From NCBI RefSeq assembly GCF_001887775.1, contig NZ_CP015519.1, positions 248,001-312,000 of the forward strand: a stretch of 64,000 nucleotides of DNA, in the 5' to 3' direction. The notes beneath the pieces are model-generated. The model saw only the letters and a list, made by a program, of their open reading frames with translations. It was not told the origin of the DNA and searched no databases. Both the position numbers and the translations under genes were made by a program. This DNA is from Syntrophotalea acetylenivorans. Lineage in GTDB: Bacteria; Desulfobacterota; Desulfuromonadia; Desulfuromonadales; Syntrophotaleaceae. Below are positions 49,339 to 52,324 of the stretch, in pieces. The stretch's first letter is position 1, and the number at the start of each line of letters is the position of its first letter.

Positions 49339-50763
49339 ATGACAAACACCGTCGATACAGACTATTTGATCAAGGATCTTGCTCTGGCGGATTGGGGACG
49401 TAAAGAAATTCGTATTGCCGAAGCTGAAATGCCGGGCTTGATGGCATTGCGTGAGGAATTTGGAGATCAGAAACCTCTAGCCGGAGCTCGTATTACCGGT
49501 TCTTTGCACATGACGATTCAGACCGCGGTTTTGATCGAGACCCTGGTCGAACTGGGAGCTGATGTGCGCTGGGCCAGTTGCAACATATATTCAACACAGG
49601 ATCATGCCGCCGCTGCCATTGCTGCTGCTGGCATCCCTGTGTTCGCTTATAAGGGAGAGACCCTTGAGGAGTACTGGCAATATACCAAGTCAGCCCTTAA
49701 CCACCCGGACGGTCCGAATCTGATTGTCGATGATGGCGGCGATGCTACCTTGCTGGTGCACCGAGGCGTGGAACGGGAAATGGAATTTGAAAAAACAGGA
49801 AAGTTGCCGGCCATATCGACGGACAATAAAGAGCTGACCATCGTCGACCAGTTGCTTAATGATACCCTTGAAGAAGACTCCAGTTTCTGGAGGCGTATGG
49901 CCGAAGGCCTCAAAGGGGTCAGTGAAGAGACGACCACCGGAGTCCATCGCCTCTATCAGATGGCCCGCGAGGGCAGCCTGATGTTCCCGGCTTTTAACGT
50001 CAACGATTCGGTTACCAAAAGCAAGTTCGACAATCTCTACGGCTGCCGCGAGTCCCTTCTAGATGGCATCAAGCGGGCGACCGATGTCATGGTGGCCGGC
50101 AAAAAGTGCGTTGTGCTCGGTTATGGGGATGTCGGCAAGGGATGTGCACAGGCCTTTCGCGGCATGGGCGCCATGGTCTTTGTTACTGAGGTCGATCCCA
50201 TCTGTGCTTTACAGGCCGCCATGGAAGGGTTCCCGGTCGTGAAAATGGATGAGGCCTGCGCCTATGGTGACATTTTTGTCACAACGACCGGTAATGTTGA
50301 CGTTATTACTCGCGATCACATGGACCGGATGAAAAATGAAGCCATCGTCTGTAATATTGGCCACTTTGATTCGGAAATCCAGGTCGATGCCGTCTACGAT
50401 GACCCCAACCTGGTGGTCCATGAAGTCAAGCCTCAAGTTGAACAGGTCGAGTGGCCCGATGGCAAGCGGGTGACCATTCTGGCCCGCGGTCGCCTGGTCA
50501 ACCTCGGCTGCGCCACCGGACATCCTTCCTTCGTAATGTCGGCTTCTTTTACGAACCAGGTTTTGGCTCAGATTGAATTATGGGTCAATCCCGACAATTA
50601 TGAAAACCAGGTTTATGTGTTGCCCAAACAGTTGGACGAAAAGGTGGCCCGTCTGCATCTAGGTAAGCTGGAGGTAGCTTTGACGGAAATGACCCCTAAG
50701 CAGGCCGAGTATCTCGGTGTTGAGGTGGATGGCCCTTACAAGCCCGATCATTACCGCTATTGA
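49339..50763 (+). CDS. ahcY: Adenosylhomocysteinase
   Basis: 474 residues. The NAD-binding loop is [13 protein letters not shown]; substrate-binding segments include [23 protein letters not shown] and the C-terminal [10 protein letters not shown]. It splits S-adenosylhomocysteine to adenosine and homocysteine, relieving product inhibition of methyltransferases. The length includes the bacterial-type 40-residue insertion. AAGGAG lies about 9 bases upstream. Probably co-transcribed with the SahR-like regulator. Confidence 0.98.
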
Positions 50764-50885
50764 GGCCTTTTCCTTTTCAGGTGTCGCTTGCTCCTTCGAT
50801 CGCAGCCTCTAGGTTGTGTAATTGCACAGTCTCTAACAAGGGTTTCAACCGCGATTTTTTACGGAATGGCACGTGGCGACCGGAC

Positions 50886-51002
50886 GGGAGGGTAGTACAA
50901 TTGGTAAGACATAAGATCTGATCGTAACGGGTATGCGAATCAGGTCTGAAACCTCCATCTTTTGGCGCGTTGTCCTTCCCTCCTGAGCAACGCGCCTTTT
51001 TT
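50886..51002 (+). ncRNA. Candidate structured small RNA with terminator, downstream of ahcY
   Basis: About 115 bases with three nested elements: GGAGG (50,887-50,891) pairing with CCTCC (50,952-50,956); inside it a 9-bp stem AGATCTGAT / ATCAGGTCT (50,914-50,922 and 50,939-50,947, one G-U) extended by CGTA/TGCG; and a terminator (GGCGCGTTG / CAACGCGCC, 50,964-50,972 and 50,988-50,996) with a T run. The terminator loop holds TTCCCTCCT, a C-rich anti-Shine-Dalgarno-like sequence. The 5' part (TAGTACAATTGGTAAGACA) resembles a tRNA D-arm, but no anticodon arm fits. It could be the structured 3' end of the ahcY mRNA or an independent sRNA. Confidence 0.5.
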
Positions 51003-51049
51003 ATGTTTATTTTACTGGTATAGCTGGTTGGGCATAAGTAGGTTGTGTT

Positions 51050-51092
51050 TAGCTAGTTGCCCACCCGAAGTTTTCGGAGGGGCAACTAGCTA
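51050..51092. repeat. Long intergenic hairpin upstream of prfB
   Basis: TAGCTAGTTGCCC (51,050-51,062) and GGGCAACTAGCTA (51,080-51,092) form a perfect 13-bp stem, with an inner CCGAA/TTCGG stem and a 3-base loop. No T run follows. It lies about 95 bases before the prfB promoter. Confidence 0.65.
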
Positions 51093-51163
51093 GGATTGAA
51101 TGTCCCAATAAGTATTTGATGCCTACTGTGGATATGAACAGGTGAAGATGCTACAACTGCACC

Positions 51164-51228: not shown

Positions 51229-52324
51229 ATGTTTCGTGAAGAAAATGAGGCCTTAAAGAAACTCCAGGTCAAGCTCGATGAGCTGAGGGGGTATCTTTGA
51301 ATTACCGGCTAAAAAAGAGCGTATTGCTGAGCTAGAGGCAGAGATTGCGCGTCCCGGTTTCTGGGATCAGGGCGATAAAGCTCAGGATTTGCTGAAAGAG
51401 CGTACCGGCCTGGAGAAGATCGTAGAGCAGTGGGAACAGGCGGCCAGGGAACTTGAAGACCTTCAGGTTCTGGTGGAGTTGGGAGAAGAGGGCGAGGATC
51501 AGGAATCTCTGGATGAAGTGCGAGATTTACTACCGGCCTTGACCAAACGGGTGGATAAGATGGAATTTGCCCGCATGCTGTCCGGTGAGTATGACGCCAA
51601 CAACGCCATTTTCAGTATCAACGCTGGTGCCGGAGGACTTGAGGCTCAGGATTGGGCCGATATGTTGCTGCGCATGTATCTGCGCTTTTTTGAAAAACGG
51701 GGTTACAAAACCGATATCACTGACTATCAGCCCGCTGAAGAAGGCGGGATCAAGAGTGTTACCCTGACAGTGGAAGGGGATCATGTCTACGGCTGGTTGC
51801 GTTCAGAGATCGGTATTCATCGCCTGGTGCGGATTTCACCCTTTGACTCCAATGCCCGAAGGCATACGTCCTTCAGCTCGGTTTTCGTTTTCCCCGAACT
51901 GTCCGACGAAGTTGAGGTTGAAATCAACGAAAAGGATCTCAAAGTCGACACCTATCGTGCCAGTGGTGCCGGTGGGCAGCATGTCAATAAGACCGATTCC
52001 GCTATTCGCATCACCCATATTCCTACCAACACCGTGGTGGCCTGCCAGAATGAGCGTTCCCAACATAAAAACCGGGCTACTGCGTTAAAACAACTCAAAG
52101 CACGACTTTTCGAGTTGGAGCGTCGCAAAAAAGCAGAAGAGGCTTCCTCTATTGCCGGAGAGAAAATGGAGATCGGCTGGGGCAGTCAGATTCGTTCCTA
52201 TGTGTTGCACCCGTATCGCATGGTTAAGGACCATCGTACCGGTTTTGAGGTAGGTAATGCCGATGCCGTTCTCGACGGGGATCTCGATGGTTTCATCGAA
52301 GCGTATCTGCTAAGCGATCAGTAG
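51229..52324 (+). CDS. prfB: Peptide chain release factor 2 (programmed +1 frameshift)
   Basis: 364 residues after frameshifting. Translation starts at ATG 51,229 (AAGGAG upstream) and runs 23 codons to CTT TGA (51,295-51,300). The internal Shine-Dalgarno-like AGGGGG lies just before CTTTGA, the classical autoregulatory shift site; slipping +1 continues as ELPAKKERIAELE into the main frame. RF2 recognises UGA and UAA: the SPF tripeptide is in RISPFDSNARR and the GGQ motif in GAGGQHVNKTDS. The stop codon in the shift site is UGA, the codon RF2 itself reads. Confidence 0.97.

Follow-up and report, generated by a model that had tools for sequence, protein, structure and literature searches.

The intergenic region between ahcY and prfB in Syntrophotalea acetylenivorans holds a pair of hairpins, the second of which is a terminator with a C-rich loop, and raises the question of whether these belong to a neighbouring gene or constitute an RNA gene in their own right. 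The stretch of DNA analysed (the window) comprises 64,000 nucleotides, positions 248001-312000 of the 3.22-Mb single-contig genome, and the coordinates of features are those of the window. From comparison of sequences we favour, at a probability of roughly 0.8, a stand-alone small RNA (sRNA) gene that belongs to a set of several paralogs and carries a promoter and a terminator of its own. Its product would act in trans against Shine-Dalgarno (SD) sequences, probably with the assistance of Hfq. The relevant features, all on the plus strand, are these:

ending at 50763, +: ahcY, upstream neighbour of the RNA
50860..50876, +: promoter box TACG-N6-CACGTGG, common to many family copies
50873..50878, +: inferred -35-like element GTGGCG, a poor match to TTGACA; it overlaps the box and stands 17 bases upstream of the -10
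50896..50901, +: inferred -10-like TACAAT
50907..51002, +: predicted sRNA of about 95 nt, its start inferred from the -10 and its end from the terminator
50914..50947, +: 5' hairpin of 13 bp with one bulge (50914-50926 paired with 50934-50947; two G-U pairs)
50951..50959, +: linker anti-SD motif ACCUCCAUC, with CCUCC at 50952-50956 predicted unpaired
50964..50996, +: intrinsic terminator hairpin GGCGCGUUGU/GCAACGCGCC, from folding and stem covariation
50976..50984, +: terminator loop UUCCCUCCU, the second anti-SD motif
50997..51002, +: terminator T-run, read from the sequence
starting near 51230, +: prfB, downstream neighbour, read from the sequence

Structure of the predicted RNA

An earlier note on this DNA had proposed a structured RNA with a C-rich terminator loop after ahcY, and the hairpin, the terminator and the loop are indeed all present, the predicted RNA lying 144 bases 3' of the ahcY stop on the same strand. 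When folded against shuffled sequences, the predicted transcript (50907-51003) reaches -32.8 kcal/mol (z -4.18), and the terminator segment by itself, which that note had rightly called strong, reaches -18.3 kcal/mol (z -6.99). A rough scan of hairpins preceding T-runs counted 49 on the plus strand and 17 on the minus strand; one on each strand carries CTCC in its loop, that on the plus strand being the terminator after ahcY. The inner stem was also correctly recognized at 13 bp, with one base bulged, although two G-U pairs are counted rather than the single one reported; its loop carries no C-rich motif. This stem is intact in 5 of 7 orthologs and retains 11 and 10 of its 13 pairs in the remaining two. 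The outer stem is not conserved: GGAGG (50887-50891) with CCTCC (50952-50956), can form here, yet pairs fully in only 2 of the 7 orthologs, and it probably lies outside the RNA, because its GGAGG arm falls upstream of the inferred -10, on the side of the promoter box; a segment that includes it (50880-51003, z -2.99) is closer to its shuffles than is the predicted transcript. We read the CCTCC previously given to the outer stem as probably a second exposed motif, situated in the linker; the earlier note had missed this, as well as the paralogs.

The position of the -10 places the expected start of the RNA near 50907, downstream of GGGAGGG. A switch in which the terminator loop pairs with that upstream GGGAGGG, also entertained before, is accordingly disfavoured, the GGGAGGG being both unconserved and upstream of the inferred start. 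A tRNA or tRNA-like element was considered and discarded, ARAGORN reporting 0 genes in the window, in keeping with the prior observation that no full tRNA fits. The recommended Rfam search returned no family at threshold in the window, nor in 20 loci with relatives, and comparison of 50850-51010 with 72,556 plasmid records gave no match.

Two observations concern the DNA that follows. Between the sRNA and prfB lies a near-perfect inverted repeat (51050-51092), the sole such place in this genome bar one weak match (E 0.73); the corresponding stem-loop (51045-51105) folds at -34.6 kcal/mol (z -7.25). The prfB gene itself opens (51230-51300) with a short frame ending AGGGGG-TAT-CTT-TGA (51286-51300), after which the long frame continues in another phase, an arrangement typical of the classical release-factor-2 programmed +1 frameshift.

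A shared promoter box

The strict box pattern (TACGN6MACGTGG) was scanned in five genomes, our own and those designated G004, G006, G010 and G005. In our own genome its 3 matches all start 53-85 bases upstream of a family core or model match, and no protein gene was found under the box. Matches upstream of copies amounted to 3/3 in this genome, 3/3 in G004, 3/3 in G006, 2/3 in G010 and 0/1 in G005; the 2 of 13 that are not at copies, the sole G005 match among them, count against our reading. The number of matches is in itself unremarkable, since the box read backwards gave 10 in the same five genomes against 13 for the box, and only the position of the box is telling.

At the level of sequence, an intergenic location with an own promoter and an intrinsic terminator was found in 37 distinct copies (one box, at L165, being spurious), and a -10-like hexamer follows the box in these by 20 bases (32 rows) or 19 bases (5 rows); this set, which also served for accessibility and in which the orthologs of G007 and G009 were taken from the alignment file, is a subset of loci and not every covariance-model match. 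The exact box recurs in members from two other families of the order (L056, L061, L139 and L164). It is missing from many members outside the window's family, which weighs against our reading, but where it is held in common it suggests that the copies are probably under one regulator. A sigma54 promoter was suggested by TGGCAC and rejected, there being by eye no GC at the right spacing. As a separate observation, a string resembling AAATGCACAG recurs upstream of several of the sRNA promoters (upstream of the box at L009, L021 and L023, and also at L164 and L165) and is possibly the site of a second regulator.

A multi-copy family with two motifs predicted to be exposed

The region is not unique. 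Queried with 50850-51050, blastn gave matches in 14 of the 21 genomes searched, including four places in our own, and relatives carry tandem copies about 215 bases apart. A looser regular expression for copies also matched inside genes, and those matches were set aside. With a covariance model built from 25 core sequences, the core being ACCUCCAUCUUUU plus the terminator, matches were obtained in 66 of the 136 genomes searched in the order and in every one of the 14 from the window's family (between 2 and 8 per genome; model E-values are rough). Our own genome has five, two of them weak. A class-wide sample yielded matches in 62 of 244 genomes, 61 inside the order and one, weak, outside it. 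Of 34 stretches recovered by a pattern scan of named genomes, 24 fell in Desulfuromonadales or Pelobacter/Desulfuromonas records (among them Desulfuromonadales bacterium C00003107, Pelobacter sp. UBA5610 and Desulfuromonas sp. CSMB_57) and 10 in unrelated bacteria.

Predicted RNAs of the family span 67 to 116 nt. Their 5' part varies, and after it come a linker with ACCUCCAU and the terminator. In a MAFFT alignment of 25 sequences, 5 of the 10 terminator pairs are changed on both sides; among 97 distinct model-aligned sequences, an alignment fitted to the model and hence biased towards it, the figure rises to 9 of 10, and double-change cells number 146 where shuffling gives a mean of 19. CTCC occurs in the terminator loop of 95 of these 97, compared with 28% of shuffled loops, a frequency that is partly selected because the model itself favours CUCC there. 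The linker CCTCC is invariant in the 25 core sequences; in the 97 distinct matches, linker CTCC is present in 62 and absent in 35, an absence that counts against our reading, and members without it (e.g., L131, L134 and L135) may form a one-patch subfamily. Mean predicted unpaired probabilities across the 37 copies are 0.87 for the linker CCUCC and 0.95 for the loop CUCC. The 5' hairpin is common to orthologs but replaced in paralogs, so that what the family shares is the exposed motifs and the terminator. The suggestion that this is a trans-acting sRNA whose C-rich loop would face SD sequences is thus well supported, by the multi-copy family, the shared box, the covarying terminator and the near-constant loop CUCC.

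The genomic settings of the copies vary. All 7 loci compared keep the order ahcY-RNA-prfB. Downstream of the paralogs at genome positions 2950215 and 2136664, the genes that come next (ORFs being picked by length) are on the other strand. A related genus offers a further setting: in six of its genomes, copies precede a feoB-like gene in the same orientation (identified by tblastn; L178, L180, L366, L367, L368 and L369). Two of these loci have feoAB and the other four a more distant FeoB-like protein, which Pfam confirmed in one case; a connection with iron is hinted at. An hfq gene was found in 8 of 8 genomes tested.

Relation to atoC RNA and to other known systems

The best Rfam match to the RNA is atoC RNA (RF01733), which scores 25.3 bits against a gathering score of 50 and aligns end to end with the same loop. 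The terminator loop CUUUCCCUCCUAG stands in the atoC consensus, CCCUCCU being found in the loop here as well, and the two share the same order, where RF01733 is detected at E 0.001 in 28 of 58 genomes and above cut-off in 7. They differ in that atoC RNA has another terminator stem (GCCCUGG), no linker CCUCC in its consensus, and an ordinary -35 in place of the box; at E 0.001, moreover, RF01733 gave no match in our own genome or in any of the six members of the window's family included in the 58-genome sample. We treat it as a sister kind, and not as the same family. Of the RF01733 hits, 28 of the 37 listed were read (L029-L036 and L371-L390), and 26 of these have at their 5' end a sigma70-like promoter, here meaning -35 and -10 elements that together agree with the consensus at 9 or more of 12 bases, compared with only 60 of 2458 random stretches. 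This implies that atoC RNA, too, looks like a stand-alone sRNA, with a single terminator-loop patch, and not like a leader. The RNA was described in 2010 and has the entry "y, y, ?" in the original table (PMC2864571).

Better-studied RNAs offer analogies of mechanism. The LhrC1-5 RNAs of Listeria carry C-rich motifs at three places, loop A, linker and terminator loop; these motifs are redundant and are reported to bind lapB mRNA at its SD (PMC4132741). The RNA described here resembles them in being multi-copy and in placing C-rich motifs in the linker and terminator loop; it differs in that the third motif, in loop A of LhrC, is absent, and in that the LhrC host is Gram-positive, and Rfam indicated no sequence relation to LhrC in the window or in the 20 loci with relatives. 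For NfeR1, anti-SD motifs are reported to silence ntrB and periplasmic transport mRNAs (PMC10746234). NfeR1 and the other alpha-r14 or "cuckoo" RNAs of alphaproteobacteria are alike with the present family in that their anti-SD motifs are constant in unpaired regions while the stems vary, yet they have three hairpins, each with CCUCCUCCC, whereas the RNA predicted here has two hairpins, no CCUCCUCCC, one linker CCUCC(AUC) and one loop UUCCCUCCU. By analogy with LhrC and NfeR1, this RNA may be expected to pair with SDs and block initiation. RepG of Helicobacter pylori reportedly uses a C/U-rich terminator loop as its pairing seed, in which respect it would resemble the present RNA. Its target differs, being a G-repeat in an mRNA leader (PMC8295292) and not SDs.

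Alternative explanations

The simplest alternative, that the region is only the terminator or 3' UTR of ahcY, accords with its place on the ahcY strand, 144 bases beyond the stop codon, where it would also end read-through from that gene, which may feed into the RNA as well. We consider it unlikely all the same, given that copies with the same core and box stand beside other genes in this genome, and that the spacing of the box and -10 ahead of the RNA is constant. The neighbouring genes likewise bear on the notion of a cis-acting leader or attenuator of the downstream gene, here prfB. That gene is the next on the same strand, in an order conserved at all seven loci, and Rfam gives the related atoC RNA the type Cis-reg; against this, prfB starts more than 200 bases past the terminator, and the genes that follow the two paralogs (again with ORFs chosen by length) are on the opposite strand, making this explanation very unlikely.

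Two further alternatives concern the motifs themselves. The CCUCC patches might constitute a protein-titrating or ribosome-directed decoy, binding a protein or mRNA SDs without specific targets, and several of the loops do read UCACCUCCU, resembling the tail of 16S rRNA. The CCUCC core of that tail is noted in the literature (PMC6288834). The linker, however, is conserved beyond CCUCC, as CCUCCAUC, which suggests a longer pairing partner and renders a decoy quite improbable. A small peptide, for which an ATG at 50933 opens 17 codons across the linker and loop, has an open frame in the window in its favour, but the ATG is absent in 3 of 7 orthologs and one-base changes of linker length among family members break the frame; we give this possibility hardly any credence. 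The stand-alone sRNA is preferred over all of these, with the proviso that the number of mRNAs able to pair with a CCUCC patch is potentially very large, which counts against this reading with regard to specificity.

Candidate mechanism and targets

In the mechanism that we envisage for the stand-alone sRNA, a promoter marked by TACG-N6-CACGTGG, and probably answering to one shared regulator, would drive an RNA of about 95 nt ending at its own terminator. This RNA is predicted to leave two anti-SD patches unpaired, the linker CCUCC and the loop UUCCCUCCU, which, judging from their conservation and from the studied analogues, would pair with the SD regions of mRNAs, probably with Hfq, and so block translation initiation. 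An SD that reads GAUGGAGG matches the linker CCUCCAUC by complementarity, and this longer motif may favour mRNAs with that SD, for example those of outer-membrane barrel and periplasmic binding proteins, though the indications are suggestive only.

The pattern GATGGAGG-N4-10-ATG gave 100 places listed in six genomes, of which 99 were read, the other being the antisense of an sRNA copy; 24 distinct starts were accepted by ORF rules, many others being short frames or lying inside longer ones. Control SDs in four of the same six genomes (GTAGGAGG, 15 places and 15 read; ATTGGAGG, 43 and 30; AAAGGAGG, 177 by per-genome counts and 30) provided 21 accepted starts. Among the candidate targets are an Alginate_exp-family protein found in three genomes (Pfam was run on two of these), TonB-receptor plug proteins, a FadL-type transporter, Phenol_MetA_deg, Gcw_chp, DctP and a PstS-like binding protein. 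Products look exported in 15 of 24 accepted targets against 6 of 21 controls (p 0.023), by a crude rule that miscalls at least one target (L253, a CTP synthase by Pfam) and one control (L343, a ketoacyl synthase); the AAAGGAGG control alone gives 5 of 9. A PstS-like protein of G006 carries ATTGGAGG and not GATGGAGG, which in its case speaks against the target idea. It was removed from the controls by the ORF rule, which also excluded L240, a lipoprotein, and L243, ClpP, from the targets.

Pfam scans covered 18 of the 24 accepted targets plus L240, and 20 of the 21 controls, leaving out L223, L229, L249, L250, L256, L261 and the control L348. Taking Alginate_exp, Phenol_MetA_deg and Gcw_chp to be outer-membrane barrels, such presumed barrel families account for 8 of 18 scanned targets and 0 of 20 scanned controls (p 0.0009), or 6 of 16 against 0 of 20 when orthologs are collapsed (p 0.004), in a comparison chosen post hoc, after the targets had been seen, from a small sample and with crude rules. 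Outer-membrane protein mRNAs as targets are thus a lead and not a result.

Implications

Titles and the opening lines of abstracts, from a literature in which few subscription papers were covered, contained no description of this family under Geobacter or Pelobacter sRNAs, anti-SD sRNAs, multicopy sRNAs of Desulfuromonadales, or RF01733; RF01733 itself is named in two papers. Rather than a cis-regulatory element, as Rfam types it, atoC RNA is suggested to be a set of stand-alone anti-SD sRNAs. A broader proposal, which we offer tentatively and consider possible rather than probable, is that a single regulator, acting through the box, is devoted to sibling anti-SD sRNAs that lower outer-membrane barrel, TonB-receptor and solute-binding-protein mRNAs in Desulfuromonadales. 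On this proposal they would be the order's own equivalent of the envelope-stress sRNAs of enterobacteria, perhaps connected with iron by way of the copies upstream of feoB, and atoC RNA would be a second branch misfiled as cis-regulatory. If transcribed as predicted, these loci would represent a multi-copy sRNA family of Desulfuromonadales, whose promoter signature makes both its inducer and its targets directly testable.
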